Below, in pieces: positions 7,362 to 55,670 of a stretch of 64,000 nt of DNA. The first letter of the stretch is position 1; every line of letters starts with the position of its first letter. The notes under the pieces were generated by a model. That model saw nothing but the letters and a program-made list of their open reading frames with translations, did no database searches and was not told where the DNA came from. The DNA comes from Thuidium tamariscinum (Eukaryota; Streptophyta; Bryopsida; Hypnales; Thuidiaceae). The stretch lies in the NCBI GenBank assembly GCA_947034885.2, contig OX344755.2:24807052-24871051 (forward strand), read 5' to 3'. Both the position numbers and the translations under genes were made by a program.

Positions 7362-7516
7362 GAGATAAGTTGGTGTTCAAAACACCAATAAGGAAACGTG
7401 GATGGATGAAGAAAGAAGTAATTATTCAACCCGAAGTTAATGCATGCAGCCAATGAAGGATGCAAGACGAAGAGCCTCGATGGAGAATTAAGGTACCAAT
7501 GCCTTGTGCGAGCACG

Positions 7517-27900: not shown

Positions 27901-28512
27901 CCTGATGAGAATGTCTGGAAAAAAAATTAAAACTTTTCACCGTATAAGGTAACTAGTCAAGTTAAGAGCTGAAATTAAATTTTGGGGAGCGGAAACGTCT
28001 TAAAATATTTTCCAGTAAATTGCCTTTGAAAGACAAGTGGAATTGACATCTAACCAAAATTGTTTTATAATTTTTGAAGTTTTGTGGAATTAGTTATGAA
28101 TTTTTGAAGTTGAAAGGGCATAGGGCTTTGAAAACGCCCACCCTTGCAATGTACACCCTTTGTACATTGTTGAAGGCTACAAAAAGCAACATGTACAAGT
28201 AGTGAAAGTAGGCGGTTTTAGGCGCATTGAACTTGCAATTGGTGGGGAAATTCATAATTAATTTTTGGAACAATGTACTTGATTACTTGAACAAGTTAAC
28301 AAGAAGATCAACAAGTTGGTTTTCTTCAAAAAAAATTAATGATGAAGATTTTGATTTTTGACATTCCTTTAAGGACAAGTATTTCGTATTTTGAAGTGCA
28401 TTTGGGGGATCCTTTTGGGATTAATGACATTTTTGAATCACGATTTGTCCATGTCATGATTTTAATTAAAAATGCCATGAATTTTTCGGGACCCCGCAAA
28501 AGGAATTTTGTC

Positions 28513-34747: not shown

Positions 34748-37152
34748 CAAAGGGAGCGTGAGATAAAAGTTTCTTCAAGAAAGTTGGAAGCAAGTGTCGT
34801 TTCTTCACCTCCAGAGGAGAAAAAATAGCACTCAATATTCTCCGAGAATTTCAGCTCTGCCTTCCACTCATAGTCCTCCACCACACACCACACACCACGT
34901 GGACTTTCTCATAGAAAACAGAGTGCTTTGGAAGTGCTGTGACAACCCCTATTGGTTGTTTGTGGCAACCTAATTAACAAGTTCCTTGAGAAATTTGAGT
35001 GTCGTTTCTTCTCATGAGTAGATGAAGAAACGACACTTGTCACAGATTTCTTGAAGAATGTTTCATCCTCCACTCCTCTAGTTTCACCCTTCATAGATTT
35101 TACCTTTGATGTTGCTCGTTGATGTTGAAAGCTTTGATGGTTGGTGAGCTTGAGATTGTTCATCGTTCATCACAATTTCCTCACAGATAATTGATTCTTG
35201 GATTTTCATTCTCCATGCTCAATGCATTCAAAAGGAGTGTCATATGACTTCTGAGGATAATGGCTCTCCATTGGCCTCATGCTTTTCTCACGAACTTCTC
35301 ATTCTTTGAAAAATTTGCTTCTTGGAAGTGCTATGACAACCCCTATTAACAAAGACAACAACAAATATTGTTCTTGCTCAATGAACAATGTTAAAATAAT
35401 GCCATAGGCAGGTAGTACATGCTACCCTTGTAGAATTTGCAAAGAGGGTAGTATGGGCCTAATATTGTATTTCAGCTGACTTCTGTAAAAATATTGGACC
35501 CAAAAAAATGAATGCTTTGAATGCCGCTAGTTTATTCCTTCAAAGACAAAGCACAACTTGATGCTCACATTTCAAAAAATGAATGAATGAAAAATAAATT
35601 ATAATCATTCTCTAGACAATTTTTTTGTCATTCATTGGACTCTAGACGTCCATGTTGACATTCCAACAACGCTAGCGCTCGAGCATGGAGCGGTGAGCTT
35701 GTGAGCTGTGAGCATGTAGGTTGTGAGCGGTGAGCATGAAGCATGTTTTTTGAAAATATTTTAATTGAATTTTGTTTTGGATTGATTTTTTCCAAAAATA
35801 GAATAAAAGCTTTCTATTTATAGTAAATTCTTGTACCTATGACCGTGCCCCTATAATCGTGGATTTTCATAAAATCCTCTACCTTTTGGCAATTATTGTT
35901 TGGTACTATGCATTTGGAGTTTAGGAAATTTATTTCTAAAAAATGGCAAAGAATATGCCAACCACTTTAAATACAAAGACTTGTATCACATGACAATAGT
36001 AAATTGTATTTTTTTCACTACCTAAAATGAATATGGACAATTAAAAAAAATGAATGAATGAAGAAAAGGTCAAAAAATAGAAATACATGACAAAAACGAT
36101 GTCTTCAAAATTAGAATATATCATTTCAATTGCACTATATGTAAAAGAATATAGCATGAATGTAGTATACACCAAAAACTAGCCATTCCTACTTAGAAAC
36201 AATGATGATCTCCGCCTAAACTAGGAGTAGCTTCAACTCATTGAAGCTATAACTAGGTGATTGAATGAATTTGTCATCATGAATATCCATCTTGGAGAAG
36301 TACCTGTATAAATAATATAAGTGGTTACAGTTCACGTATTGCACTCTCGTTTCAATAGCGGATATCACCATATTGACAAAATTAGGGCATGTGCATGCAT
36401 GTAGGAAATATATTTATTGTCACTCAATATACGTTTTTATTTTACTCCACTCTAGTCTCCAACACCACTATTGCACCAAGTCCTAGAAGAGGTATAAGAG
36501 TTATTTCCAAAATTTGCCTTCTAATGTTCCCAACACTTTTCCATTTGTTTTATTGTTCTATAGTTGGAGCATTTGCAAGTCTTTTAATTGTTCCATTGTT
36601 CTTTACTATTAGATGTACATCTAGATTTGGTGGACATGATTGGTTGAAAAAGGCAAGCTCACAAATCTTAACCATCATAAAGACTTTATGTGGCGATAAT
36701 GTGGGTCAGTCTTGGAGGTAGAAACTTGCATGCTATAAGAGTAAGGTCTCTTCTTGATTGAAATTGCTCCCCATCACTATAGGCCAAACTTCAGGCAGCT
36801 CCAACTAATCAATGACCCACTCTTCTTTGTACCTTTCACACATCATTCAATGTCATCCCAAGACAACAAGAAATCCACCACAACCTCTTACTTAGTTCCA
36901 AACTCTTCTTTTCTACTACGATATATTGGAGCTTGAATTTCCTTTCTACCCTTTGCAATCCTTGAGGTACACTTGATGTTTGATGTCCATTGTTGAGCAA
37001 AGCATCTTGCATTTGATTTGTGTCTGATCCTTGCAATGTGCCACTTCCATGTGTTGCAATCACTTTTGCATGCTACCATCACATCGTAGAGGGGACTAAC
37101 TTCATTGCAATTTTGAGTGCCTTGCATTAAATCTTCTATAACCTTTGTAGAC
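34748..37152. other. AT-rich stretch left of the 18.5-kb transposon
   Basis: It contains a hairpin at about 34999-35037 (GTGTCGTTTCTTC against GAAGAAACGACAC). GTGAGC-rich repeats at 35656-35750 start CCAACAACGCTAG, like the nested element at 43882. A minus frame at 36888-37148 runs into the insertion site and may be a remnant of something disrupted by it, but no family is recognised. Confidence 0.4.
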
Positions 37153-37182
37153 GGGTGAATGCAAGAAACACTTGTACTATTT
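37153..37182 (+). repeat. Left terminal inverted repeat of the 18.5-kb transposon
   Basis: It pairs with 55637-55666. Sub-terminal CGTCACACC just inside resembles AGTGTGACG just inside the 745-bp element. Confidence 0.85.
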
Positions 37183-37739
37183 TTCGTCACACCAACAATT
37201 TGAAAGTAGTTTTGTACCATAAGTAATGCAAAAATGATCCAATGAACACGAAATTTCGAACGAGGGTTCACACAGACATTTAAAACTTAAGGAATTTTTT
37301 TCAATTTTATCAAAATTAGTTGTATGGGTCGAATTGAATTTCCAATAAATGTCACAAATGAAGTTTTACTAGTTTCTAGTACTATTGAGTACCCAAGCTG
37401 AAGTCATTGGAGCTGAAATTTATAGAGCTTGCTTGTGTAAGCAATATACACCTTCCCAGGAGAGGGATTTTAGAAATAATGCTTTGACTGAGTTCTTCAT
37501 GGCCCTAAAGTATGCTTCAATTACCTCAAATTATCCGACATTAAAAAATGAAAATTCAATTTTTGGATCGGCTTTCCTCCTCTCCTGTTTCTTAGCTACA
37601 ATGGCCATTTTTGTCCATAATTTTTTAGGTCCTTTTAGTAATTTCTAAAAATAAAAAACCATTACTATGTTTTTTCATGAATAATTACACACTGTGTCTC
37701 GAAGTAGTAGTGCGGGGTAGTGCAAAGCATTGCATAGTA

Positions 37740-37790
37740 CTAGTGGGGCCCACTAGAAAGAACAATTAGCAGACGTGGACTGTCCACGTC
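37740..37790. promoter_or_regulatory. Two adjacent palindromes upstream of the transposase gene
   Basis: CTAGTGGG-G-CCCACTAG (37740-37756) and GACGTGGAC-T-GTCCACGTC (37772-37790) are perfect dyads with one-base centres, spaced 15 bp apart. They lie about 230 bp before the transposase ATG. They may bind the transposase or a host bZIP factor (the second contains ACGTGG/CCACGT cores). Confidence 0.5.
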
Positions 37791-38016
37791 AGGCACTGCA
37801 GGAATACTACCGTCGCTTATTGAATGCCGTGATTATTCCAATACTGGGTCGATGCCGCCGCCAACGCCTTCCTCAATTTCGTTGTCAGGGTTTTCAAATT
37901 CTCTTCTGTCAACTTCTATGCTACAATTGTGTTCAGGCGCGTCGAAATGTGGTTGTTGCCTTTGTTGTTTTTTGTTGCGTTACTTAGAATTCTAAGAGGC
38001 AATATGACCGGTAATC

Positions 38017-41000
38017 ATGGATGAGGGAAGGAGGGAAGGTCGGCCGGGTCCGCGGACTCGAGCTTCCATGGCAGCTGTAGCAATTGATGTACAACGACAA
38101 CTGTGGAGGGAGCGGCAACGTCGCTGCCGTGCTGCACAAGCAGCGACCAATGCAGAGAACGAACATGAAGAACCTGTTGCACATCGACCACTTCGATGGG
38201 GTTCCAGTAGGAATTGCACTAGTCTCTGGAGAAGTTCGCAAAGAATTGTGGACTCTCTCATCCGCTTGTTAGAAAGAGTTAGAGATCCTGATGTGCGAGC
38301 TGCTGTTTTAGACAAGGTCTTCACAAACCAGCGCGTACGACCGTTACTTCCAGATTACTATCCTCGTCCTCATGAAGCGAGAGCACAACGAGATATATTG
38401 CAGAACATTCGGGCTGACTTACAAGCATTGAAAGTTCCACATTCTTCTGGTATGTTGGCACGGAAGCGAGCTATCCTGGAAGCAGCTGTTTCCGAATTGG
38501 ACTCAGACATTTCAAACTTTCACAACATCTTGGGTACACGGAAGGAGAATTTGGTGGCCGCACTGGATCGATTGCGATCCGCTACAACTACTACATCAAG
38601 TCGATATGTAGTTCCAACGCGTAAGAGACGGGAAGGCGGGATATCTGAAGAAGTGAAGGCTGCTGTTCTTCTGTGGTGGACTGAACAAACAAGGGTGACT
38701 CCAAGGCGACGGGACGTGCGACGAAAACGCTTGGGACGTAGCCTTTACGATACACATGCTGCACATCTACTTCTTGAAAATCAGGTGCATCTTTGCTTGC
38801 TAAATTATGTTCCTTTACTTTGTATCCAATGCTTTACTCTGAATTTTGGTTGCATGTCTTCCATGAGTGCTTTCAGTTCCTTGTAGTTGGGTTTCCTTTG
38901 CTTTTACAATGACAATACATAATGCAAGAGCTTCAAACTCTATACATTAAGGATAGAATGGGTGAAGGATATGAATAACTCTACAGGAGCTCTGTATATG
39001 ATGTGATTTCTAAATGATTGTCATCTCCGTATGGTATTACTTGCCTTTGCAACAGAATCACTGATTACAATCTGGACACTCTAACAACATCCATGTCTTC
39101 CTGAATTTTGAACAACAAGAAGCACTTTCTGTATCCCTAGGTTGCACTTCTTTGTTTAGGTATGATACTACTATGTACTTAGCTCCCTATAGGCTTCCTG
39201 CTTCATTTGACTTGTAAGAGACATTACCCTATGTCCATCTTAGTACTCCCTATTGCATTCCCTATCTACATGAAGTACTATGAGAATCCTAGGGCATCAG
39301 ACATGTAGTACTCCCACCTATTCATAGCTCATATGCGGTGCACATATACTGAAGACCACTAATTGTACTGGTTCATGACTATGCGCATTTTTGATACGCC
39401 CTAGGATATTGTTTAATACATCTTCTAACCACTATGTAGGACTATGTTGTTTCTCGATACTTGCTTCATTCCTTCAATTTTTTCACTTGAATGCAGTAAG
39501 TACTACATCCATATTGCTGTTTACTTTACAGTACTATCTGTTGTTTCCGTGTATTCTTTACTTACTAAGGCCAATGCTACTGTATTATGCGGATGTGCAC
39601 TTCTAACCGCTGAGGTCTTCCATATCTTTCCAAACTCCGTCAAGTACTATGATGTCCTCTTTGTTTTTACTGAACTTGGAACTATCACTTCTTTCTTTGT
39701 ATAGTCCTCAATGGAGTACTATGTGCACTTTATGCTTGTATAATGCGGTAAGGCCTCTATTTCTTTTGAAATATGGTTGGTAATTTTCTCTTCTTCAGTA
39801 CTATGTTTTACTTTGCTTTCTGTGTTGTATTATAGTAGTCCTCCTCCGTTAATAGTACTCTGATGATTGAAATGCAGTACTATTGAGTACTAATAGTGCT
39901 AGGCTGGCTTATCTTCTATAATTACTTCCATTTTCTACTATATATACTAATCCATAATTTATACAGATGCAGCTGTTCAATCGCTTTGTGGAAGCCCATC
40001 CCCATTTCAGCATTCAGTGCAGAGCGTTCTTCAAACTCCGACCTTTTTTTGTGATCAAGTGCAAGGAACGGAATGTGTGCTGCTGTAGGTACCACATTCA
40101 AGTCCTGTTTCTTCTGGAGGCCCTAAATGCATTCCGTGACCCCCGTACAGGTGCTCATGTACTCTTCATATGCACCTGCCAGTGTATTGTCTACGGCTTT
40201 GAGAATGGAGGAGTTTGCAATGTGGGCAGTAGTAAATATGCAGGGGTGACAGCATTGTGTGATGACTTGCTATGTCCAAAGCTTGAAGGTGAAGAATTCC
40301 ACAAGCGCAAATGCTTGATGGGAGGCTGCAGTAGATGTGGTGTGTGCTTCTTCAAAGTTTGTCCTCGTGAACGGGTGACAGATGCAACCCGAATCATTCA
40401 GTGGAAGCAGTTCCAGTACGAAACTGTAGGGACGTCTACAGATGGTCGACCCAAAAAGCGCATCAAAGAGGTTCTCATGACAACGTCTTTCTCTGAGTTC
40501 TTGGATTTCTTTTTACCGACTGTGGAACAATTCATTCGCCATAACTTCATAGCAAAGTGGCAGAGTGAGCAAGCAAAACTTCTGCAGTCTTGTTTGCAAG
40601 CAGGGGCTGTGTTGACTCACATAGATTTCTCTGAGAACTACACATTTCAGGTGCAAAATGAGATCCAGTCCATGTACTATCATTCCGAACAAATCTCTAT
40701 TTTGGTGCAAGTTACATTCTGTGCTGATGCTGAAGAGAATGTTTTGGAAGAGGGTATACAATTGAAAAGAGAGACACACTTCTACATCTCTGATGACAAG
40801 ACTCATGATACCTTCTTTGCCCAACATTGCCTGATGCTGCATTGGCGTTGGATGCAATCAAGGGGATTTTCACCACAAATTCACTATGTTTTTAGTGATG
40901 GTTGTGCGGGACAGTTCAAAGGTGCTAAAGCCATGTACTTCGCTGCAAGGTAATGCTCTCTTTTTATGTCAAGTGCTCTTCTATATTTCCATGAATATTT

Positions 41001-42410
41001 TGCTGCTACTTGCATTTTTCTACTGTTTTCGTCAGTACTAGGTACTGAGTCCACTGTCTTCTGTACTAAGCACCTCTTGTTTCTTTTGTCATCTGTACTA
41101 CGTAGTATTATTTGGTAGTCCGAAGTACTATTAAATACTCATGAGCTATACATAGTCCTCACCGACTATTTTGAACACCAATAATTTAGTACTACCCCTA
41201 CTACATTGCCTGACAATTTTGACGACAGGTTTCATAAAGGATGTCTGAGCCCTCTATACCTGCAATTCATTGACATGAGTATGTCTAATTCTAAGGCATT
41301 CACTTCTGCTCTTTCCACTTCTATAGGTATCCTTCACTTACAAGCGGATGTAAGATGCTATGGAGCTATTATGGTACAGGCCATGGAAAAGGCGAATGGG
41401 ATGGTGCAGGAGCAGTCATAAAAAGGGCACTTCGGGCAGAGCAATTACTGAACCCCCATCGACGCCTCCAAAATGCAGCGGACTGCGTTCTCTTCTTGGA
41501 TGCCACTATGGCTGGACAAGTTCCTAATCGTTCTCAAGGAATAAGGTCTTCTCTTTTGCAATTCCATGTAATTCTGATTTTTGAAATGTTGAATCCCATT
41601 TTCCCATTTTCAAGTGCACTTGAGATAGTATCTATATTTACAGACTTGCCCGAATAACGACCATGGCTTCAACCATGCACATATTGGGTGTGCAGATCGT
41701 ACCGATATTTCCATCACGTAGGAGTGAACGATGTGGACCGTTCAGCTGTAGAACACTGTGATCCAATTCCCGGATCCTCAAAGTTCCACTCCATTTTCGG
41801 CTTTGATCAACAAGATCCAACAAAGCTACTTGTGCGTGGCCTGTCCTGCTTTTGTGGCCCGTGCTTGGAGGAAGACTTTGTTCACTGTGAGAAAAAAGCT
41901 TATGTGAAGCCGTGGACTGCCTTGAAGATCCAACCACGGAATGTCAGATTTGCTGCAACGCAAATGACCTAAGAAGAAGACGAAGAACCTTAGGACTATG
42001 AATATGACATTGATTGTATGGCAGATTTAGTGCAACAGGGAGACAATTTTGTAGTGGCAGCTAGTGAGAACAATGAGGAAGGCGTCCCTTTCTTCATTTT
42101 ACAATGCCAGACTCCAAAACACATTGTGCAAGAAGATTTTGACTGTGTTTGGGGAAGCCACTTCCAAGCTGGAGACTCAGTCATCTGTGGTACTTACTAC
42201 CAAAAATGGGGACGTCGTGATGCAAACAACTACGTGTATTTGCAGACCTCGAGGCCAGCATATGTGGATTGCAGCTCTGTCCTTGCATGCAAATTCCAGA
42301 TGATCCCAAGGCAGCACAGAGTCAAAGGTGGAGATGCTGTTTATACCCTATCAGAGGAGACTGTTGATGTGATCAACACAGCTCTAGAAGAATTGCAGGC
42401 TGATGCTTAA
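38017..42410 (+). CDS. Transposase-like protein, four exons, two in-frame stops near the C-terminus
   Basis: Exons 38017-38784, 39967-40949, 41345-41545 and 41696-42410 join in phase to 889 codons. The N-terminal 256 residues are basic and helical (DNA-binding candidate: WRERQRRCRAAQ, KRREGGISEEVKAAVLLWW). A Cys-rich segment follows (HKRKCLMGGCSRCG). The core has the pattern of an RNase-H-like DDE transposase: HIDFSENYTF (first Asp), VFSDGCAGQFKG (second Asp), then GTGHGKGEWDGAG (third acidic residue), across the exon 2/3 junction. It resembles uncharacterised transposon proteins with SDGC-QFK and HGKG motifs; I do not fix a superfamily. Exon 4 has TAA (41970) and TAG (41991) in an acidic linker (EEDEEP, DYEYD). 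The frame then runs 139 more codons through a compact domain (FILQCQ, GSHFQAGDSVICGTYY). So this copy is either recently inactivated or makes a C-terminally truncated protein. Confidence 0.75.
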
Positions 42411-43240
42411 ATAGCAAGGTAACTAGTCTATAAGAGAGGCCTACTATAGTATTGCACAATGCATTCTTAGGGAACTTCATATTTTATTCAGAGGGCAAGA
42501 AGCATCAACGCAGGTGCTTCTCCTTCACTATCAAGAATGTTTAGGTAATCCACAATGAAGACCTCAAACTTTTCCTCACATATGATTTTCAAATATTCTA
42601 TTCTATGCAATGTTTTTGTTTTTGTAATCTTCATGAACATATGACCTTTCTATGAGGAAGTCCATTATTCTAAATTACTTCTTTTGCTTGTCATGGGCTT
42701 ACTTCATCACTAAATGATAAGTGAATATAATGATTTGTGTACATATGACTACTATTGTATTTTACAAACATACTTATTTACAGCTTAATGCCTTTTCTAT
42801 TTTAGGAACTCATTGTTTTAAGAAATTGCTATTTGTCCTGTGGTTAGACTTAATTATTCTGGACTCTATTGCCAAAATTTATAATAAATAAGTAAAATTA
42901 GTTGAAACAAAAAAAATGAAAAATTGTGCAATGCATACATGTAGCTATGAATTTCTTAATTCTAATGTCTAAGTGATTACTCTATTTTTTACTTCCAAAA
43001 CAAATACAAGGAAGACTTTGAAGTCAAATTTGGCTATTTAACAAAATCTACCCTTCAATTTTATTGATTAGCAAAAATTTTATTGTTCAGGGGTATAAAC
43101 AAATGCTCTCCTCCGTACTTCGATTTTATTCTGAATTTTAAAAAATAAAAATAAAATATTGTAATTTTGGATAGGTAAATGTTGCCATTACTTCATTTTA
43201 CATATAATATATATTGAACTACTATGAAATTTCTAACGTA
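42411..43240. other. Transposase 3' flank, AT-rich
   Basis: AT-rich DNA after the transposase stop, presumably 3' UTR and spacer. No gene is seen. Confidence 0.45.
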
Positions 43241-43399
43241 AATGAGAGTTAGAATTAGAAATTCAATTTTTGACACTTCCCATTCACTTCAGTTCATAAT
43301 GTCCTTCCTAATCCATTTCTACCCATCTCCAATTTTTTCCTTTCCCATTTCTATGCCTTTTCAATTCACTTCCAAAGGCTTCAACTACTTTTCACTTCC

Positions 43400-43860
43400 C
43401 CCCTCCAATTATTTTCCATTCCCTTTTCTTTTTTGCCCTTTTTCTAGTTGTTTGGGCCTCAAGTACTTATCTTTTATTCCCCCCTGCATTTTTTCACATT
43501 TCCTTTTTTTTGGGGGCCTTTTTCTAGTTGTTTGGGCCTCTAGTACTTCTCTTTTATTCCAGTAATTATTTTTTTTACATTCCCTCTTTTTTTTGGCCTT
43601 TTTCTAGTTGTTTGGGCCTCTATTACTTATCTTTTATCCCCCTTTGCATTTTTTCACATTCCCTTTTTTTTTGGGCCTTTTTCCAGTTGTTTGGGCCTCT
43701 AGTACTTATCTTTTATTCCATTAATTATTTTTTTACATTCCCTCTTTTTTTTGGCCTTTTTCTAGTTGTTTGGGCCTCTAGTACTTATCTTTTATTCCCC
43801 TCTTCATGTTTTTACAATCCCTTTTTTGGGGGGGGCGCTTTTTTATTCAATTAGGCTTCA
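43400..43860. repeat. Tandem repeat, 80-bp period, about five copies
   Basis: TTTCTAGTTGTTTGGGCCTC recurs at 43441, 43521, 43601, 43680 and 43760 (spacing 79-80 bp), in T-rich context with CTTTTATTCC between. The Phe-rich open frames here are an artefact of the T-richness. Confidence 0.85.
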
Positions 43861-43881
43861 ACTACTTCTCAGTTTCTCCCC

Positions 43882-44708
43882 AACAACGCTAGTTTGTGAG
43901 CCCAAAAGCATGAGCTTGTGAGCATAGGGTTTTTGAGGCAGAGAATTAACCCAAAAAACTGTGAATTTCTTAAGCGAAGAGAAAAAAAAATGAGGTCATT
44001 CCAAAAAAATCTATTTGTAGTAAAATGTGAGCTTCATGATCGTGGACCTATGACCGTGGACCAATGACCATGGAAATGTGGTTTATGTATTTTAAAATTT
44101 CGAACCCTCCTATCTCCAAAGGGCCTCTAAATACCTTCCAAAAAAAATTTGAATTTCTGAATTTATTTTTGAGGTTCAAAATCAAGAATCCAACAAAAGA
44201 TTTTCTAGGATGATGGAGTCCTGAAAAAGATTTAAAAAAGCTCTTTTTTTCCGACTTTATCACCGTCAAATTGATCTCTCGGTACCGAGAGATCGTTTTC
44301 AAGGGTGAGAAATCGCCAAAAAAATGAAGTAGTAACATAGTTGGAAAAAAAATGGAAACAGTTGAAAAAATATGGAAAAAAAAGTTTTTAGAGCTCAAAA
44401 GCCCTCTACCTCCAAACCCCTTTCAATATCATGAGGGATTTTGGAGGGTGATGGAATTGCAAAAAAATTTGGAAAAAAAGGGACTAAAAAAAATTGAAAA
44501 AAATTGAAAATTAAAAAAAAAAAAAAAAAGATTTGAAAGTCAAAAATTTCAAATCCCATGAGGGGGGTACTAGATATATAGAAATCCAAAATTCTTAAAG
44601 CATGGTTATAGGTCCACGCCCTAAAAATCACTAAAAATTTCTCCAAAAATTCTAGGCTCAAAAGATCACAGGCTCACGCTTCGCAAGCTCAAAAAATAGC
44701 ATCCCCGG
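43882..44708. mobile_element. Nested ~827-bp element with 9-10-bp TSD (MULE-like size)
   Basis: The 10-mer GTTTCTCCCC occurs at 43872-43881 and again at 44708-44717. Between them the ends are weakly inverted: left CGCTAGTTTGTGAGC, right reversed TGCTATTTTTTGAGC. A 9-bp duplication is typical of Mutator-like elements. Inside is a perfect 22-bp palindrome at about 44273-44294 (GATCTCTCGGTAC and complement). No gene. Confidence 0.5.
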
Positions 44709-45120
44709 TTTCTCCCCCTCCCCCCCGAATTATTTTGCATTCCCTTTTTTTTTGGGCCTTCTTTAGTCACTTGTCTTTTTTCCCCTCTCCATTCTCTCAC
44801 ATTCCATTTTTTCTTTGGCCTTTTTTTCTCAATTACACTCCAAGTCCCCCTTTTTTTTCCCTCTATATGTTTCAACATTCCCTTTGTTTTTGTTTTTTTG
44901 AATTCATGTGCGCTATAGCTACTTTCATCATTTTATCCGCTCCCGATTTGTTTCTCTTCCCAGTTTAAACCGTTTATAGATTTTTTTTCCCCTTCCTATT
45001 CATTTGGGCTTGAATTACTTTTAGAATTTTTGCACTCCCCATTGTTTGGGGCCTTTCCACTCTGTAAGGCTAAACGTAGCCTTCCATTCTGTTTCTGGCA
45101 TCAATTTTTTGGGCTTCACA

Positions 45121-46197
45121 GGGTCATTGCACGAAACACCTATACTATTAGTTGCCTTTTTTTTGGACCTCTTAAACAAGGCTCTAACTTTCGAATTATG
45201 AACTCAATGCAAAAAACAGAAAACCTATTTCTAGATATCTTGATTGCAATTGATATCCCTTTTTTTTAGAAATTTTAAAAATTCATTTTCTGTTTAGAAG
45301 TCTATTTTGTTAATTTGTCACACTTAGTAGTTTAGGGGTTTCAGTCCTATTTTGAACCCAAAGAAACAAATGTTGAGGTGAAATTTTGAGAGGATGATTT
45401 CATAATATACTTATAGGTATTTACCAAACAGGGATTTTCAAAACAATTAATTTTATGTGGTATAGAATTCTACAAAGAGACCCTCTTCCTGCTTGCGGTT
45501 TTGAACATATGAAACCTTTTTTTGGTGGGGTTCTTTTTTCAAATCTTACCACCAAAAAGTATTCAGAAATGGCCAATTTCTAGATTTCCTTAAATTCATT
45601 TTTCCTATTTCTTGAAAATTAAAATGTAAAAGTTGTATTTCCTTCATTGGAATTGTAGACATAGAATTCTGGTGAAGAAAATTTCTCTATACAATTTTTT
45701 AATTAAGAAAAAATAGGATTAATTTTTAAGAGAAAATTAAAATTATATTATTTAAGAAGACTTTTTGGTGATGAGATTTGAACAACAAATCCACCAAAAT
45801 AATGTTTTATATGTTTCAAAAAGCAAGTACCACAAAGGTCTCTTTGTGGACTTCTTTACCACATAAAATTAATTAATTTGAAAACTCCTTTAGTCAATAG
45901 CTATAATTATATTATGAGATCATGCTCTCCAAATTTCACCTCCATATTCGTTTGTTGGGGTTCAAAAGAATACTAAAAAACCCTGAATTGGAATTTGTAA
46001 CAAAACATTGGGGCTAATGAAAAATAATAAAAAAAATTTGAAATCTTTAAAGATATAGAAAAGATACATAATAGTTATAAATATGTTGCCTATAAATTTT
46101 GAATCATTTAGAGCCAAAACGCAAAAGTGATGCCCCTAAACCAATTCAGCATGTACCATGTGACAAAACAAAGTACAAATATTTCGTGCAATGACCC
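45121..46197. mobile_element. 1077-bp non-autonomous element nested in the transposon
   Basis: Both ends start GGGTCATTGCACGAAA (16 of 16 identical, right end reversed). A perfect 4-bp CACA duplication lies at 45117-45120 and 46198-46201. It has the same termini type as the 18.5-kb host element and the 745-bp element at 11658. The interior is AT-rich and non-coding, with TTTGTCACACTTAG shared (inverted) with the 745-bp element. Confidence 0.82.
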
Positions 46198-46201
46198 CAC
46201 A

Positions 46202-47394
46202 CTAATTTTGGCTTTCAGTAATTTATTATTTCTTTCTCTTCCCCTTTATTCCTCTTATAGCTTCTGTTATTGAGTTCATGGAAAATTGCCCAAGTTATTT
46301 CTGGAGGGCCTTATTCTACCCTTTTGTACTTCACTGTGTACATTTGGCATGTCTTTTCTATTTGCCTTTAATTTCGGTATTTGCGTACAATCTTTTTTAA
46401 TTTTTTAATTCTATTAGAGTATTGAGAGAAGTCCCTCTTCACTAAGTCTAAATAACATTAGGGGGACCTAAAGTACTTGGCGACAAAAGTTCTGTAATAA
46501 TTAGAACTATTCCATCGTTTTATTGTATGCAATGTTCACAACTACAGTGAAATTGTATTTTTGGAAACATGTAAATATTTGGACATGAATTTAGTCATCT
46601 GAAGAAGTAACAATTGCTTTCTATACATATGTGCAAACACAATTTTTTAAACCATTGCATTTTTGCCCCCTACAAAATATAATGGAAATATCTAAAACAC
46701 ATATGAAAGTTGCCACTTGAAGAAGAGTTTCTATTTCCTAACATAGAAATTCCATATTCTCTATGAGCGTCCGAGAAACAACAAATTTTTTGACATACTT
46801 TCAGAAGGATATTGTGAAAATGGAATGAACGACAACAATACCACAAGACAGAATATTTAACTTCTATGACTTCCTTCATAGTATTATACAATGCAGTCTC
46901 TTATCATTGACACAAACACTCTTTCTAAGCTTTTTCTTCTGAGATGTTACTATAAATTGTGAATGCAGAAAATGAAGCCCTTAATAAGAATTATTGAGGT
47001 ACACCATACTGAGATACTAATTTCCTAGCAGCACTTATATTTTATTATACAACAACTGCTACAACATTGTTAGTGACATCCAGAATGTTTTATGACTTCC
47101 ACAGAGGGAGACTGCTTGTGGCACACTTCCACTGCTGATGTTAAGAAAACAGTACCACTACAATGGGAAAAGAAGCAAAAAAATATAGTTTGTAATCACC
47201 AAGTACTATAGAAGTACTGTCTTCTAATCTTGATAAGATGTCTCCCTTAAGAAACAATATAAGGACTATACACAAGAAGAATAGTACTTATAAGTACTGT
47301 GGTGACCCCATTCTGTGTTGAACTATACAACAAATTTCAAGTGCAGACTTCTTACATCTTTCTGCACATAAAGCCATTCATGAATTTCAGAAAT
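46202..47394. other. Spacer 3' of the SUVR gene
   Basis: AT-rich spacer between the nested element and the SUVR stop codon. AGTACT-type words increase towards 47200. No gene is seen. Confidence 0.4.
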
Positions 47395-50300
47395 TCAGTG
47401 CCCTCTGCAGAACGTGCTGCCGCAAGTACAGTGGAATGGCTCCTGCTTTCCGTCAATTGTAGAGAAGGCACAGTCGTAGTCCCACGTTAATTCTTCTCCC
47501 TCTTCTACTTCTCTGCTTGTGAAAAATGCTACCTGCAACAACAAAGAGACCATGACGCCAATTCTATGAGGTGTAAGTATCTATACGTAGTCACTTGTAC
47601 AAGAGAATTTTCAAAATCGAAGGAGTGCAGAGGAGGTTCTTACATGGTACAATGTTGGAATCTTCTGCTCTATCCAAACAGGGATGTCTATTAAATTTGC
47701 ATCACCACATCTGCAACCACAACATCCACAGACAAGCACAGTATGAAAAATATGCAACACTCAATGAGAGCAAGGGTGAAGATGTATAATTTTTTGAAGG
47801 AGAAATCAGAGGAATGTGGAAAAAGTAGCACATACCTGTGATTTAGCCACCTGGCAATGTTTGTGAAATTAGATGCATCAATAGAAAGCAAGTCTTCATC
47901 TCCCAACATCACTTCACATGGCCAATGTGCATCAAGTGCTAGAGAGTACTTCTTTGCCCCCCCACGCCGCAATAACTCAGCATTACTAACAATTTCTCCT
48001 GCATATTCAAAAACAAAGCATCCTCGGCCCAACCTCTTTGTGGTCCGAATCCCCCACCCTTTGGAGTCATGAACATGAAAGACCTGTATAAAGAAGTACT
48101 TAGCATAATGCATAAAGAAATACTTGGACCAATACATGTCCAAATCAATCGAAGTTTCAAGAAAAGAAAGGACTTCTGGAAAAAAGCATCTATGCAGTGT
48201 GTACGATTCACTAGAGGTGGCACTTGCATTCTTCCCTCTAGTTCAGTGTCTACCATGTCGGGGTCAACGTTGGCAAGCATTGTACCTGGAGATTCTTGTG
48301 CACACCACCTTGCACAACTTTGTTAGAACAGGATGATATGCATCGGCAAGTGTCGTAGCACTCTTGAATGTAGGCTCTATGAACATGGCCACCGCATTTG
48401 CCGTTCTCAAATTCAGGGCAAGAGTGATGTCCACCGCATCGAATTAGCCCTCCATTACGCACTGTGCGCTTACAGAGGAACTGAGGAAGAAATAGCAACA
48501 TCAGGAATTGCCAAGTCCCAAGGAAGTCAACATCTAGGCCAAGTTCATTATTCTCGATAAGACTGCCAATACATGATACTCTATATGCAAATCAGTTCAA
48601 TAAGGAAAGAAAATTAAACATAATCAAAGGTATAAATTCACCTGCGCTATGTATTCCGGAAGTAAAGCACCATCCAATGTATATGCTACACCTCCAGTAT
48701 TATGCAAAGCATAATTCTCTGTACCCTTGTCAAAAGCATTGACTGTGGATATGCACAAACAAAATTGGTCCATAGCACGTGCATGAGCCAGTGCTCCTGC
48801 GGTCACTGACTCATGCAGCACAGGACTGCATACATAAATGTAGGAATGATCGAATGACGACAAAGCATCTGACGAAGTTGGCTTGGCGACTAGGATAGGA
48901 AAATTCTCCATACCCTTAGCCAAGTCCCAAGGAAGTGACTGTTCTTCACCCTGTCCATAACAACATGTCATACAATTGCTCCAAAGTGCAAAGAAAAACG
49001 TGGTTAGTAGAAAATGGATGGTAGTCATATATAATATAATTCCTTGTACTACAGTAATTACAAAAGGTAGGGGCCACTATCCTCCCGTGACATAGGGAAT
49101 GAGAACTATGAAAATAGGGCCCAGAAAATTGTGCCCAGTGGCCCCTCTGGAGCCCAGCGTCTCTCAAAATAGGGCCCACAAAGTTGGGCCCCGTGGCCCC
49201 TCTCCAATCCTACATGTCGAAGCAATGCCTGCCCCCCCCTCCATAGCACACCTACTTTGTGGGTGAGAAGAGCGTCCTTAGTTCCTTACTGGAATTACTT
49301 TTTACCCACCTCCTTCAAAGATCGTGGTCCACCATGAGTTCCTGTCTTTTTGGTTCCTTCAGTTTCCAGCGCCGCTGCTCCGGGTCGTGGTCTCAATTGC
49401 CTTTTACTAGCTTGGGGGGGGCAATCTACTTTGGATCCAACACATGAAATTTGCTTACCTAAGAAGCCAACAGTAAAATCCAAAGCAACTTCCTGAAGTT
49501 AGTCTGCTATAGCCATACATGTATGGATCACAGATACAACATTAACCACCGGAAAAAAAAATTCTTAAGCTTCTATAGTGCAGTTTTTACTCTAAGATAG
49601 CACTACTAGTAGTCAAAGGTGGTGCTTCAGTGTTAAGTACAACTGCAAGTGAACTAGATCCTCTCCACTTTGTGCTATTCTAGTAGAAGGGCTCAAAGCA
49701 AAAATGTGAAAACGTAACCCTGAACTTTACCAATACCAATAGTACTGTAACCAGTACTATTGGTTCTCAAAGGTTCTGTACCGTACCTGATGAAGACTCC
49801 TTCGGTAGTCCTCTTGGAGGACTGCATGCAAGAACCGCATGGTCATCAGGACTTGCATCTTCAGCTACAGAAGTCTTGTTATGCCCTTCCATAGACTGAA
49901 CGGAACGCTGCACCCGGCTTGTAGTATTAGTGACTTCTGTGACCGTTATATCCCAGGGGTCTTCAGCGTCCTACTCACCATTACACCAACCCACATATGA
50001 TCTGTTAGCATCATGTTTTATGCATAGTGTGTAAGCCAAGCACAATTATAAGCAACCCGTTCTATGTTTTGTTAGTAGAATACAAATTAGTTTTTATTGC
50101 CTTCTAAAATATGGATCAACAAAATGCCACTAATGCAAAAAAGACTACAAAAGCAATGAGGAAGACTACAGTAGTCGCATAAAGGCACGTGGTTAGTAAA
50201 GCACCTGTAGTTCACTACAGGGCTCTACATCCACTAAGATAGGCACCTTCTTGCAACTGAAGTCCAATGCCCGAGCATCTAGTCTCTTCGGAGGTTCCTC

Positions 50301-50696
50301 TACCGTATGTGCAGGTAGGGTATCTTCGTGAGGATTGGATGAGGGCAAGTCCAATACATCTCCTGTGGCCTTCGCAGGTGCAGAGGAATTTACAGGGCAT
50401 GCCGAGTCTACCACATCTGACATCGGGGTCGAAGACGGACATTCCAGGGCTCCACCAGATACTATTGATAGAGTACCGCTTCCAGAAGGGTACTCGAAGC
50501 CAACAGCAGCAGTGGAACCTTTAGAAGCAAAAGGATTCAATGTTTCATCGCCATCAATCATCGTTGCTTTAGGTGTCAGAAGGTGCATTGCTTCATCTGA
50601 ACCTACAACATGTAGCTGTGGATGAAATTGCTCATGGCCTATGTACTTAGAGAAAGTGCTATCCGAGGCAGATATGCTAGGTGCCCCTATGTCCAT
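47395..50696 (-). CDS. SUVR-like histone H3K9 methyltransferase (transposon cargo)
   Basis: Recognised exons: 50696-50205, 49970-49787, one or more unresolved between 49787 and 48950, then 48950-48642, 48480-48286, 48083-47836, 47710-47644, 47532-47395 (TGA). The last five join in perfect phase. The N-terminal ~225 residues are disordered. Next comes the SUVR-specific lead-in (LPWDLAKGMENFPILV, then GGVAYTLDGALLPEYI), a pre-SET Cys cluster (CRCISSCSNKVVQGG), and SET motifs GWGIRTTKRLGRG, RWLNHRCGDANLIDIP and EELTWDYD. A post-SET CTCGSTFCRG follows. All catalytic and zinc-binding signatures of the SUVR1/2/4 group are present, so it should methylate H3K9 or act as a SUVR2-like silencing factor in the nucleus. 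ATG 50696 is a choice; the exon could instead be spliced to the RING gene upstream (phase permits via AG at 50687). No WIYLD domain was recognised. Confidence 0.88.
49111..49225. repeat. Two-copy 55-bp tandem duplication in a putative intron
   Basis: AAAATAGGGCCCA recurs at 49111 and 49166, each followed by a TGGCCCCTCT block. It lies in the unresolved part of the SUVR gene and may have disturbed its splicing. Confidence 0.6.
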
Positions 50697-50828
50697 GGAG
50701 GCCACCCTTGCACAGTTACCACAAAGAAAACAAATGAGCTTATGAAACAAAAAAATTTCAAAGTTTCTTATACAAAACCAAACTTTCATGTGCTAGTTGG
50801 GAGAAAGTACTAGGCAGCTGTGTATTAC

Positions 50829-52742
50829 CAATCATATAATTGGCCTTATGTGAAGACGCAAGTAGGCATGTTGTCAGCGGTGTAAAAGCAACTACTGCAT
50901 TGTGAGGCGCATCAAACATACTTCCTCCAGGGCTTTGATTGGCATCTCCAAATCCCCAACTCATAGACCACAAGGGATGCACTGGCCCACAGTTGTAAAC
51001 AGCACAAGAAGAATTAGACTTGAACCAATTGGCAGCACACCATGGGTGGTAAACATGCTGGCAACTGCAAAAAAGGAAATCCCCAAGTGGAAAACCTTCG
51101 AAACATATAGAGCACCGGAGGGCAGTCAATGAGACGGTTGATTCCTTTTCCGAAGTAACGTTGTCAAAGTTCTTCAATTGGGGAAGAGGGTGCAGCACTA
51201 GTCCTTCACCACCACGACTCAAGTCATTGAAATGCATTTCAAGTGCTGCTTCACGGGCAACACATCGTTTTACCTTTGCTGTAATCTCCTCTAAAGAGTT
51301 CCGGAGTTGTACTTCCTAGTCAGCAAATTCGTTGAGCTTCCTCAGGTGACCATCAAGTACTCGTTGTAGGACCTCAGAGCCGCCTTCCTCCTCCATTTCA
51401 GTCATAGTCTCCCGCAATTGCTGAATTCCGAGAAGTCTACCTCTGTGCTGGTCAGCTGCTGCATCAGCCTTCTTCTGAACTTCTTCAGCTGTGACTTGCA
51501 AGCTTTGCACCTCAGCATGTACAGAGTCGAGCACAACTTTTACGGAATCCTTCCTAATTAAGAAGCCAACAAAGAGAGCATTTAGAAGGTATAAGTGAAG
51601 AAGACAAAAAATTGAAGTGGTAGCTACAGAATTTCAGTAGGAAGGCAAGAGGTAAACCTGGCAGCCAACTCCGATGAGTTCAGACGTGAAGGAGGAATAG
51701 GCACAGCAAAAGACTTTCCATCAACTGCTCCACTACTGTTGTCATTGACGTTTTGAAACAGCTGCACTACTGGCTGCTTGGGATCTTCAACCTCTAAATA
51801 CTTTGTGAAGCCCTCTACCTTGGCAAGTTCGTCAAATGGCTTCTCTATAATCTGTGCAAGCCGAAGGAGCCACATCCGAACACGCCTAGCATAAGATCTC
51901 CGTTGATCCAAGTTTGTCTCCGCTGCAAAGCCAGCCCAATTTATTTTAACCCCTTTTGTCTCCAAGGTCCAACCCATGGCCAATTCTTTGTCGATGTGAG
52001 TACTGCAGTGGGGCTTCTGATAACACTGACAGTACAGGGACTCCACCTCTCTACGCAAGGCAGGAGTCAGTTTCTCTGCGAGGAGGAAGCCATTCCGCCT
52101 CTTCTCTTGACCAAAGAGTGCTTCCACGTCTGCTAAAGAAACATCTTTGTTCATGTGCAGCCGGTGTGGGTTCAAACCATCGCGGCCTAAGTTGCAGGCG
52201 GTGGCAAAAATGTCTTCGGACATTGCAGTCGGAGGCCGCTTCAATGGCTGAGAAAGCAAATGCAATTGCTTGCGGCATTCTGTCTTTGTGTATTCACGAG
52301 AAGATGCACTAGCCTTCTTCAACTTGGAAGGGGTCCTCACCTGCACTTCATCAACAGTATCATCGTCGTCTGACTGACCCTGACTTCTAGACGCAAGGTT
52401 CGTGTCTTCACCATCAGATCCAGACACAGTGGGGTAGTGTTGTTTCTTCGCTAAGGATCCAGCCTTTCTTCTCCCTGGGCTACTTGATACACGCACTGAT
52501 GATCCTGGAGCTTTGGTATTTCTTCTCTTCTTCTGGCTAGTACCTTCTCCAGCAGTAGGAGCTAAGTCTTTGCTGGCCTTTTGTGAAGTAGAGTGCACTT
52601 GATGTTGCAATCCCCTTTTCTTGCCCTTCTTATCATAAGTTCTTGGCTCTGTATCTGTATCCACCTCCTCTCCTTCGACAGCTGTGTCTACAGAAGAAGG
52701 CCTCGGTCGGCTTTCTGGTATCGAGGTCTTCATCCTCGCCAT
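50829..52742 (-). CDS. Coiled-coil/RING protein of the transposon, one in-frame TAG
   Basis: Exon 1 is 52742-51658 (ATG at 52742) and exon 2 is 51553-50829; the junction is in phase. The first ~170 residues are basic and disordered (nuclear signals KKGKKRG, QKKRRN). Residues ~175-350 form a folded, unrecognised domain (LLSQPLKRPP, CYQKPHCSTHIDKELAMGW). A coiled coil follows (LQVTAEEVQKKADAAADQ). Then a TAG at 51316-51318 splits FAD from EVQLRN. The frame continues through a RING-type finger (CSIC-x11-CSCQHVYHPWC, then C-x3-C; near 51114-50990). The HVYHP core matches gene B. The last ligand pair has spacing 3 instead of 2. If TAG is a true stop, the protein loses its RING. The C-terminal exon is not resolved; the frame also runs unspliced to a stop at 50758. 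Confidence 0.68.
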
Positions 52743-54362
52743 TGAAAGCACACGTAGAAACTGTAGTGACTCACAACATAGAAAGCAATGAGAGTAGAAT
52801 ACATATTGAATTAACATTGTAATGTAAGACAAGAATATTATCCACCTTCCTCTACTACTTTATAGCTTCACGAACATGGTATATTTAGAAAGGGAAAGAG
52901 GAGTATTTCACCAAAAAATTTGTGAGTGCAGTAGCATACCTGTTTAGCACTGCCGTAGTGCAAGTGAAAGGCCTTTGATGCCGTACAGAGAAGCAGAACA
53001 ATGTGGTACCGAGTCTGTAATTCAAAGATGATGTAAAGCCGCCTCAACAAAAGAATGCTAAAGGAAAAAAAGGAACACTTCGTCAGAAAGCACAGGATAG
53101 CAATTCAATATTTTTTTAATGCAGAAGATAGTACTATAGTACTGAACATCAGTGGCCGTGGATATGGAACTAGGGATTCAGCGCAGCACATAGTACTAAG
53201 TACTGCTTAAAAGTTCCGAGTAGTACTGAAGAGTTATAGAATAAGACTCATAGCGTAACTTATAGTAATAAGTAGTGCTTCAAAGTTCATAATAGTACTA
53301 CCAAGTTCTACAGTAAACTTCAGAGGTGACTAGCATTACTTCCAAGTGAAGTTATAGTACACTATAATTAGCTCTAATTTAGAGTAGTAAGCAAGTAGTA
53401 CTTTGAAATTGGTTTAGTATATTGTAGAAGTAATGAATAGTACTGCCTAAGAGGTAAAGAATACAGCACCCTTGGTAAGTAGTACTAAAAGAATTCAATG
53501 TACAGGAACTTGATGCTATGACGAATTATGTTAATAATATAGAGAAGCAACAAAAAGTGAGTACTATGGATATGAAAGCTTAAGAAGGAAAGACACGAAG
53601 TACCTGGAGTATGGAGTTTCTGGAATAGTATAGGAAGACAGTACTACCGAAGCCTTGTAGCTCTGCCTCCAAGTACTGTCCGATGATGTTTCCAACCTAA
53701 ACACATGAAATAACACACATTGAGTACAATGTAAAATTCAGATGTTCCACAAGTACTGCAAGTAGTATGACGAATATAGGTTTTCCAGAAAGAATATAGT
53801 AGCGAAGTCCACACATTATAGAATACACTTAGGAGCACAAAACTGACAGTCGTGAACATACAATGCATATGGTTCGTTTGAACAGCCAACACTGTATGTC
53901 ATGCACAAAGTCATTACTATCAAGATCCTACACTTCAGGACTTGCCAGACTACAAGGAGTAAGTAAGGAATGTTAAAAGTGAAGTAGTACCCATTTAGTA
54001 CTCCCTAGAAGTGCCCCATGCATTCAGAAAGTGACATCATAATTCAAAAAACGAACCTGAACTCGCAATGCAACATAGTAAATACAGAAGAGTATGCAAG
54101 CGGTGTACAATGTCTGCACTGGTTGTAGTTCCTACCCGTTTCTAGATGACAATGATATAAAACAAATCCATAGACAGTGAACACATGCAGTGGTATTTTA
54201 GAGTAAGCAAAACAATTTGTTTTGTAAGGGAATAGAGTCCGAATTTTACATTTCATTGAAAAGATATAAAACATAGCCAAAGAAGAGGTTTGGCTTCAAG
54301 ATATAAGTCAACAACAGATGCATATTCTACTAAGGAAAAAAGATGTGGACTCTCCCTAACTC
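52743..54362. other. AGTACT-rich spacer in the transposon
   Basis: Intergenic or 5' untranslated DNA of the RING gene. AGTACT, TAGTACT and GTAGTACT words recur strikingly (for example about 53130-53480). I see no coding sequence. Confidence 0.5.
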
Positions 54363-54776
54363 CTAAGGGACATCAGGACTGTCCTTCACAAGGGAGGTGA
54401 GTATAGGTAAGGTGAACTTCTTCTTAGGTCCTCTACCATAGCCTTGAAGACGATTTGGAAGATAATTGTCTTCAGCGACAAGAGGCCCCTCACACCCTAA
54501 TGGCTCTCTCATGCACTGCAAGAATTTAGAATACTCAGTGTTGCTTCTCTCCTCTAGTTCCGCCAAAGTCATCTTCTTTTTTTGAGAAGGAGGCTTCGGC
54601 TTCAAATCCAATGCACTCACATTGTGCTGAACACTAGCGGGAGTAAGGTCAGAGCTCATTCCATTTATCTGGACAGGAGGTAGGTCATTGGCTTCTTCTT
54701 CCTCATCACTCCACATAATTTTGCGCTTCTGCCTTCTATGAAGCGGGGCTGCCCGCAATCTTTTTGGTTTGTCCAT
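54363..54776 (-). CDS. Small basic protein of the transposon (~137 aa)
   Basis: It starts at ATG 54776 (MDKPKRLRAAPLHRRQKRK), a strongly basic, nuclear-type N-terminus, followed by an acidic SDEEEEAND patch. Then come a Lys/Pro-rich segment (KPKPPSQKKKMTLAEL), a Cys-containing core (FLQCMREPLGCEGP) and a basic GPKKKF tail. It ends at TAG 54363. No family is recognised. Charge and length suggest a nucleic-acid-associated accessory factor. It could alternatively be a first exon of the downstream RING gene. Confidence 0.5.
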   Translation of the reverse strand: MDKPKRLRAAPLHRRQKRKIMWSDEEEEANDLPPVQINGMSSDLTPASVQHNVSALDLKPKPPSQKKKMTLAELEERSNTEYSKFLQCMREPLGCEGPLVAEDNYLPNRLQGYGRGPKKKFTLPILTSLVKDSPDVP

Positions 54777-55636
54777 GACGCCAATGCCTGACTTTATGTG
54801 GTAGACTGTTCGGTGTGAGATTGCGAACCAAGCACTAAGAAATGAGGTCAAATTTGGACATTTCTAAGTGGTTCAGCACCCCATTTCAACACAGGACATT
54901 CCCCAGACTGCAAATCCTTCACTGACATCCCTTCACTGAAAGGCATTATCGCAGTCTCGTAGGACAAAAATGCTTGGACACGAGCCTAAACCCTAAGCAA
55001 ATGAAGTCCTCAGATGGCACATAATTCATACACAGGTGTTGGGAATGGAGAAACGCACCTCTTGTAAATGCAGAAATCTCAAATTTGAAGTCGTCCCAAC
55101 TGCTACAGTGAATGTGCAGCACCCCGACAACGAACCTTGCCAAATTCACGCTTCGCGGTGGTGTAATCCGCCCAATTACACACAAAATCGATTGCTGACA
55201 GAAATGGCGGAATCGTGAAACCGCAAGTGGCCCCACCAAGCACAAAAATGTAAAAAGTATGTCTAAAACCTTGAAGCTCTCTCAATTCCAATTCTAAAAT
55301 CAGTGCGCAACCATCACTTTGACAAATCAAGAGCTGCGACAAAGTCACGAGGCCACACCGACTTCGCGGGAATGGGAAACTCCAAACCCTAGGCGCCGGA
55401 ATTCAAAAACGGCTAAATTAAGAAGAGGATGAAGAAAGTGGATGAGAATCACTTTCCTCCATTCATCCACGATCGTTGTGCAGGCCTGCCAACCTATCGT
55501 ACACGCCCACGTGTCGTGAAGGTCCCACATCCCGAAATCAAATCAACGGCCCACGATCCATCTTATGTACCCTTTATAGTACTCACAGTACTCGTAGTAC
55601 ACGTAGTATAGATACAAGAAAAACCCAAAACGCAAC
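54777..55636. promoter_or_regulatory. Probable promoter/5' region of the minus-strand cargo, with two teloboxes
   Basis: The region between the first cargo ORF and the right TIR is more GC-rich than the outside. AAACCCTAA (about 54987) and AAACCCTAGG (about 55382) are telobox-like motifs. No convincing exon. A host-type promoter for the cargo is inferred. Confidence 0.4.
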
Positions 55637-55666
55637 AAATAGTACAAGTGTTTCTTGCATTGACCC
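55637..55666 (-). repeat. Right terminal inverted repeat of the 18.5-kb transposon
   Basis: Partner of 37153-37182, followed by the AGAC duplication at 55667-55670. Confidence 0.85.
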
Positions 55667-55670
55667 AGAC

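Follow-up and report, generated by a model that had tools for sequence, protein, structure and literature searches.

Why would a mobile element carry a writer of the very mark that is used to silence it? This puzzle is raised by a 64,000-nt window of the moss Thuidium tamariscinum (contig OX344755.2, positions 24,807,052 to 24,871,051 of the forward strand; positions below are those of the window), in which a block of 18,514 bp (37153..55666) encodes a SUVR-type module of the class that methylates histone H3 on lysine 9 (H3K9). A sequence-only reading of the window had taken this block for a DNA transposon carrying an H3K9 methyltransferase, bounded by terminal inverted repeats (TIRs) of about 30 bp with one mismatch and by a perfect AGAC target-site duplication. 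We searched the 363-Mb assembly (19 contigs) directly and found that the block belongs to a lineage of DNA transposons present in many copies. Most members combine a transposase-like gene with RING and SUVR (pre-SET, SET, post-SET) coding parts, which lie on the opposite strand in a fixed convergent order. The core of the proposal is thereby confirmed: other full-length copies exist, and the SUVR and RING parts recur inside them. Eleven contigs make up nearly the whole assembly, and among PDB chains of ordinary LHC length a host LHC protein matches best those of 8htu and 7xqp, from Physcomitrium patens (two long chains of 9vfj score higher); a moss host would fit both observations. The boundaries of the window copy and the short element nested in it are as follows.

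37149..37152, no strand: left AGAC, the 4-bp target-site duplication, in the flanking sequence
37153..37182, plus strand: left TIR, 30 bp, 29/30 identical with the right TIR by end comparison; similar ends in ten long copies
55637..55666, minus strand: right TIR, by end comparison
55667..55670, no strand: right AGAC duplication, in the flanking sequence
45121..46197, no strand: nested short element with related termini and a CACA duplication, inside the 18.5-kb element; the matching place is occupied in the sister copies C6, C5a and C5b

Both ends and the AGAC duplication are thus as they had been described, as are two short elements with the same termini and perfect 4-bp duplications of their own, namely the nested one and another at 11658-12402 flanked by GATG. 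The 19-bp core of the TIR occurs four times in the window (with at most 3 mismatches) against 0.05 expected, and the TIR pattern has 1,443 matches genome-wide (706 and 737 on the two strands), while the reversed control pattern has none on either strand (0 + 0). Most of these 1,443 termini should belong to short derivatives, because only 122 transposase matches stand against them; at least eight pairs of facing termini lie about 0.7 kb apart among the matches listed on contig C1. A further left-type terminus begins at 63441 (4/27 mismatches) and continues past the edge of the window.

Given such abundant termini, and a short element sitting inside the block itself, two independent short elements might by chance flank a host SUVR locus and imitate a single large transposon. 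This explanation has virtually no chance of being right in view of the other copies that we read, eleven long ones with the window copy included (the length of one, C10b, spans a short unread stretch between two reads). Both ends, together with perfect and mutually different 4-bp duplications, were found in 10 of the 11 (AGAC, ATTA, ACAT, GTAT, TGGA, AAGA, TGCC, TTTA, AACA and ATAC, of mixed AT content), and these ten copies measure 13.2 to 20.0 kb. The three nearest to the window copy, C6, C5a and C5b, have the same layout, measure 18.4-18.6 kb and lie at other sites, 1.1-2.2% diverged from it. Because four copies of the same layout, all of 18.4-18.6 kb, have four different duplications at four sites, two short elements that merely flank a host SUVR locus can be ruled out. 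The occurrence of TIRs and fixed-length duplications in several copies is what defines cut-and-paste (class II) elements. In the eleventh copy (contig C8:13603000-13622800) the right end and the RING part are present; the left end was not found in the 19.8 kb read, nor was any transposase or SUVR match within it. Two SUVR elements at C1:42904388-42934980 stand head to head with their left ends about 5 kb apart, have the same scores in two genome searches and nearly the same in a third, and are perhaps an inverted duplication.

How regularly does the SUVR part accompany the transposase? The locus counts that follow are lower bounds, since the searches score best candidates only: they use 125 of the 150 best SUVR rows out of 214 matches (the other 25 being additional exons of loci counted once), all 122 transposase matches, and 148 of 150 RING matches (two second pieces were omitted). 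A SUVR match lies within 15 kb of at least 96 of the 122 transposase loci, and in all 96 the two are convergent, tail to tail. With a limit of 30 kb the count is at least 100/122, whereas 1,000 trials of random placement, for which contig sizes were partly rounded guesses, gave 0.78 on average and never more than 4. The search proposed by the sequence-only reading, for SUVR and RING genes inside other TIR-bounded copies, has therefore found both. The linkage within 15 kb persists as the transposases diverge from that of the window copy: 4/4 loci at 90-100% identity, 20/22 at 70-90%, 32/37 at 57-70%, 7/8 at 50-57% and 33/36 at 42-50%. Below 42% it drops to 0/15 among the matches listed, which by itself does not prove absence because the SUVR matches listed are the stronger ones. 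At two of these 15 loci, 9.9 kb read from the transposase onward contained no SUVR by tblastn with the element or the host protein; one of the two, L051, has a RING part at 31% identity, and the RING may be an older companion of the transposase than the SUVR. Transposase and SUVR identities are strongly correlated (Spearman 0.87, n=96), and at least 102 of 121 SUVR loci have a RING match within 15 kb upstream, on their own strand. The transposase-RING-SUVR unit has travelled jointly for a long time.

The transposase gene of the window copy consists of the following exons.

38017..38784, plus strand: transposase exon 1, from copy comparison
39967..40949, plus strand: transposase exon 2, whose HIDFSENY and FSDG motifs contain candidate catalytic aspartates; 122 genome matches
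41327..41545, plus strand: transposase exon 3, with a GHGKGEWDG motif, from copy comparison
41696..42410, plus strand: last transposase exon, with the stop codon; two in-frame stops in the window copy, absent at those codons in C6, C5a and C5b

In C6 this model reads through about 894 codons without a stop, and exon-2 matches are free of stops at 63 of the 122 loci. The aspartates of HIDFSENY, FSDG and GHGKG.WDG are retained in a relative of 40% identity and form a candidate D-D-D/E triad, as judged from sequence only. Between the window copy and copy C2 the ratio of nonsynonymous to synonymous substitution rates (dN/dS) is 0.09, over a segment that started about 35 bases too early, at an acceptor since superseded. 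An acceptor at 41644 for the last exon was rejected, as it leaves 13 in-frame stops in the window copy; the acceptor at 41696 leaves two, and none in C6. The transposase has no match in Pfam, including none to a Harbinger-type transposase, and tblastn recovered no viral relatives among 89 pattern stretches of viral contigs. It presumably resembles an animal family with ENYSF...FSDGA...HGKG.CDG motifs.

On the opposite strand, the coding parts are arranged as follows.

51658..52742, minus strand: RING-SUVR first exon, starting MA(R/K)MKT in aligned copies and MTKMKT in C10a (copy alignment)
50829..51553, minus strand: RING-SUVR exon carrying the RING (Pfam zf-RING_2, 28.8 bits against a cut-off of 27.3); one in-frame stop in the window copy
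50205..50707, minus strand: RING-SUVR exon after the RING; acceptor AA in the window copy, AG in C6, C5a, C5b, C9a, C10a and C2 (copy alignment)
49787..49970, minus strand: RING-SUVR linker exon with an EDPWDIT motif, conserved across copies
49310..49458, minus strand: RING-SUVR linker exon with KRQLRPR, conserved across copies
48642..48950, minus strand: RING-SUVR first pre-SET exon (DLAKGMENFPI...), splice model
48286..48480, minus strand: RING-SUVR second pre-SET exon, splice model
47836..48083, minus strand: RING-SUVR SET exon (GWG, FEYAGEI, NHR), Pfam and splice model
47644..47710, minus strand: RING-SUVR exon with CGDANL, the end of the NHxC catalytic motif, splice model
47395..47532, minus strand: RING-SUVR last exon, post-SET with ELTWDY and CxCx4C, and the stop codon, splice model
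54363..54776, minus strand: small basic protein gene, fast-evolving (copy comparison)

The sequence-only reading had counted a transposase-like gene, a SUVR-type SET gene, a RING protein and a small basic protein. All four coding parts are there, the first on the plus strand and the others on the minus strand; what probably does not hold is the RING as a protein of its own, for its exons are predicted to splice into the SUVR frame. On splice sites and phase, the simplest model is one gene of ten exons predicted to encode a RING-SUVR protein of about 1,200 amino acids. Its splice sites have been conserved in the sister copies as well as in C9a, C10a and C2 (those of C9b are less clear), and phase agrees at 9/9 junctions, from the start to the SUVR stop, in three of seven copies (window, C5b and C2). 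A separate RING gene ending in its own stop before the SUVR finds no support, since the frame continues through conserved splice sites in these three copies. Non-canonical sites do occur: the AA acceptor in the window copy, one acceptor lost in C5b, and a GC donor in C2, C9a and C10a.

Several points call for caution here. The exon edges were set with the frame in view, and one boundary was moved by a base to a GT, the frame having failed before; the agreement in phase is weaker evidence for that reason. The RING-SUVR of the other four copies (C6, C5a, C9a and C10a) contains small indels. The last cysteine pair of the RING, its spacing read by eye, is CX4C, where CX2C is usual. The EDPWDIT motif of the linker is conserved between subfamilies that differ at more than half of the surrounding residues and is a possible interaction motif. 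For the small basic protein, dN/dS ranges between 0.16 and 2.19 in the pairs listed. Elsewhere in the window, at 4887-7376 on the minus strand, an open frame of 829 amino acids contains a RING-like motif that falls below the Pfam cut-off and is 47% identical over 38 residues to the RING of the element; it may belong to another repeat family as an accessory gene.

What kind of enzyme does the SUVR part encode, and where did it come from? Spliced from the pre-SET region to the stop, it spans 318 amino acids and is open in the window copy. Its SET domain is recognized by Pfam (PF00856, E 1e-14); the Pre-SET domain scores below the cut-off (12.5 vs 29.1 bits). Among solved structures (PDB chains), those closest to the spliced SET part are the H3K9 enzymes EHMT1, EHMT2 and SUV39H2, and the SET open frame alone has SETMAR as its best match. 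Each position of the pre-SET and post-SET cysteines and of NHxC is kept at 19 to 29 loci and not kept at 0 to 3. Across 30 loci the catalytic residues are nearly invariant (NH 30/30, GWG 30/30, C of NHxC 29/29, Y of TWDY 22/23), the weakest of those listed being the E of ELTWDY (22/26) and the D of TWDY (21/24). None of the 117 genome matches to the SRA domain (PF02182), the mark of SUVH proteins, falls within the coordinates of the window. The only WIYLD match of the genome lies in a host gene, at C1:43265066, and parts of the SUVR kind (pre-SET, SET and post-SET) follow downstream on the same strand; we take these together as one host gene. The element SUVR is without WIYLD; its SET module is SUVR-type, and because of this absence the element protein as a whole is not a SUVR.

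The element and the host SUVR have three intron positions in common, matching to within one residue (one follows LQ(V), one falls at NHR/C and one follows YH), the host intron edges being derived from alignment ends. Because the introns share these positions, the SET part was probably captured as genomic DNA, minus the WIYLD part, and a retro-copied SUVR is ruled out. The sequence-only reading had proposed placing the enzyme in a phylogeny with host SUVRs. In such a tree, with 30 element SUVRs, one host SUVR and one host SUVH, a single element clade is compatible with the data (p-AU, the p-value of the approximately unbiased test, 0.47) and is not proven, the host rows being long-branched.

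Is the enzyme of any use to the element? We computed dN/dS by the Nei-Gojobori method, skipping stop codons, for 27 chosen pairs that share branches and several of which have synonymous divergence (dS) near saturation. In 15 pairs with finite dS above 0.2, the SUVR has dN/dS of 0.09-0.26; in 10 close pairs, with dS of 0.015-0.07, the values are 0.22-0.81, and two pairs were not computable. Between the window copy and C2, dN/dS is 0.20 for the SUVR and 0.28 for the RING part. The low values in diverged pairs make the SUVR look like a gene kept by selection as a function of the element, and low dN/dS on long branches together with relaxation among young copies is the pattern expected of a gene needed for spread.

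The window copy itself is damaged, with two transposase stops, one stop in the RING part and one changed acceptor, none of which is present in C6, C5a or C5b. All seven copies that we compared exon by exon carry stops, indels or splice changes in at least one of the two genes; C6, for instance, has an open transposase model and a RING-SUVR with indels. The SUVR could accordingly be viewed as a hitch-hiking host gene without use to the element: plant DNA transposons often capture genes, no copy that we read is intact in both genes, and dN/dS is relaxed, up to 0.81, in close pairs. A mere passenger would sit poorly with cargo present at no fewer than 96 of the 122 loci in fixed orientation, down to transposase identities of 42-50%, with dN/dS of 0.09-0.26 in the 15 diverged pairs and with catalytic residues that are almost invariant. 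This explanation is already disfavoured, and we consider it very improbable.

We favour an active enzyme, on the grounds of its conserved catalytic residues and of purifying selection. We propose that an older element made of transposase plus RING captured the catalytic 3′ exons of the host SUVR as genomic DNA, and that selection on the element would then have retained the enzyme. The RING-SUVR fusion would be catalytically active on H3K9, and its action would be tied to the products and the chromatin of the element itself. According to passages of PMC7218100 and PMC4260354, SUVR4 binds ubiquitin through WIYLD, which helps the enzyme in vitro to convert H3K9me1 into H3K9me3; elsewhere PMC7218100 states the effect of ubiquitin the opposite way. 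The loss of WIYLD and the gain of a RING suggest that the ubiquitin cue, which SUVR4-type enzymes receive via WIYLD, would come here from the enzyme's own partner domain. By depositing or adjusting H3K9 methylation on copies of the element, the fusion would limit their expression and their cost, and such self-marking would let the family persist. We give this reading, an active fusion enzyme that writes or tunes H3K9 methylation on copies of its own element, a probability of roughly 0.45. The fuller account, a transposon lineage with its own heterochromatin enzyme, in which a single RING-SUVR protein couples ubiquitin ligation to H3K9 methylation on its own copies, was built from host SUVR catalytic exons and an older transposon RING gene, and was retained by selection while about 100 copies spread, is tentative and somewhat doubtful as a whole.

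Other considerations tell against self-marking, besides the damage found in all seven copies. A parasite usually profits from escaping silencing and not from writing it. Arabidopsis SUVR2 keeps its SET residues and has no detectable activity, according to the account in PMC4260354, so that conserved SET residues are not proof of activity. Nor do scars of methylation single out the family. Private changes are mostly C-to-T or G-to-A in the window copy (85/101), C6 (73/89), C5a (109/125) and C5b (151/254), and in the sister copies private C-to-T rates at CG and CHG (H being A, C or T) are several-fold above those at CHH, which fits the decay of methylated cytosine; CHG methylation accompanies H3K9me2 in plants. 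The same CHG-biased C-to-T changes were seen in another multicopy family, that of SRA genes, in two of four rows (L055 and L056; L057 shows little, and L054 is too divergent). A scar special to the SUVR element was therefore rejected, and the changes probably mark silenced repeats generally.

The same scars bear on the opposite possibility, that a SUVR without WIYLD and with a RING acts as a competitor of the host SUVR, or tags proteins of host silencing with ubiquitin for removal, so that the copies escape silencing. The loss of the host N-terminal domain, whose WIYLD has its sole genome match at the host gene, and the presence of a RING within the same predicted protein would suit this role. 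Precedents are described for TET/JBP elements and Vandal in parts of PMC12730594, and SUVR2, in the account of PMC4260354, acts in silencing without catalysis, so that a competitor need not be active. A mere decoy, however, would not need the catalytic residues that are kept here or a dN/dS well below 1, and copies bearing CG/CHG C-to-T scars did not stay free of methylation. We regard anti-silencing as possible, if rather unlikely.

The distribution of loci among contigs raises yet another option, that the protein, by marking or reading H3K9-methylated chromatin, directs new insertions into heterochromatin or helps them survive there. Contig C11 (17.5 Mb), which may be a sex or heterochromatic chromosome, holds 14 of the 36 loci in the 42-50% transposase group (33/36 with SUVR) and 0 of the 71 loci at 50% identity or more (Fisher p 3e-8). 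The group to which the window copy belongs, however, is spread over ten other large contigs with no locus on C11, and survival after insertion could yield the same pattern on C11. Such targeting of a chromatin niche appears unlikely, and we retain self-marking as the preferred reading. The family makes the puzzle testable, as one genome contains about 100 copies of varied age, a more distant transposase group that yielded no SUVR, and the host SUVR. If the fusion is active, it would be a self-contained module of RING plus H3K9 methyltransferase, and its spread a natural test of repression as a strategy of persistence.

Is such an element without precedent? Harbinger elements generate duplications of 3 bp, whereas those of the moss element are 4 bp and its transposase has no Harbinger-type match in Pfam. 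HarbingerS and SET-bearing MuDR families reportedly go back to Kojima and Jurka (2014, Repbase Reports). The passages of PMC12730594 that mention them put on record HarbingerS, of the Harbinger clade, which encodes a histone lysine methyltransferase of the SET type, and likewise MuDR families of Phytophthora with SET genes. These are likewise DNA transposons with a SET-domain histone methyltransferase gene, and the sequence-only reading, which knew of no DNA transposon with a SUVR methyltransferase, was too broad if taken to cover SET enzymes in general. What stands of the novelty is that no plant DNA transposon with a SUVR or SET gene, and no RING-SUVR transposon in plants, was found among the matches listed in the open-licence PMC literature. 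The recorded elements have oomycete hosts and Harbinger or MuDR transposases, whereas ours has a plant host, another transposase and 4-bp duplications; it also has a SUVR (H3K9-type) module with host intron positions and a predicted RING fusion, HarbingerS being known by a description that does not give its SET subtype. The SUVR element adds to the recorded class of SET-bearing DNA transposons.

Fungal TET/JBP DNA transposons, as presented in part of PMC12730594, also carry an enzyme that acts on silencing marks; they are proposed to remove a DNA mark, whereas the enzyme class of the moss element adds a repressive histone mark. Retrotransposons of dinoflagellates and charophytes that carry DNA methyltransferases, a precedent named by the sequence-only reading, are described by de Mendoza et al. 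2018 (PMC5890265), who report hundreds of such elements in Symbiodinium and suggest self-methylation. There, too, a host-derived writer of a repressive mark lies in transposon coding regions; the difference is between a retrotransposon with DNA methylation and a DNA transposon with histone methylation. Sola2 elements, by the description in PMC3627910, have 4-bp AT-rich duplications, a transposase of 888 amino acids in one family and amoebozoan examples. The 4-bp duplications and the moss transposase model of about 894 amino acids are similar by description, not by sequence comparison, and the moss duplications are not uniformly AT-rich (AGAC, TGCC and TGGA among the ten). SUVR4-type enzymes, as outlined in PMC7218100 and PMC4260354, share with the element protein the pre-SET, SET and post-SET regions with NHxC, and the host SUVR its intron positions; the element protein lacks WIYLD and has a RING-bearing N-terminal part in its place. 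In SETMAR, too, a SET enzyme and a transposase were joined in evolution, and the direction differs: a host gene gained a transposase there, and a mobile family gained a SET enzyme in the moss. SETMAR is a host gene that acquired a transposase domain.

There seems to be another multicopy family, one with an SRA gene, the SRA domain being a reader of 5-methylcytosine: many of the 117 PF02182 matches have near-identical scores, and four of the five top loci read (L054-L057, L060) have an SRA domain without a SUVR/SUVH-type SET by tblastn in 3.45 kb. Within the window, 28504-34255 forms a fold-back structure about 6 kb across, with inverted arms of 739 bp at 99% identity and several of 260-430 bp at 90-96%.

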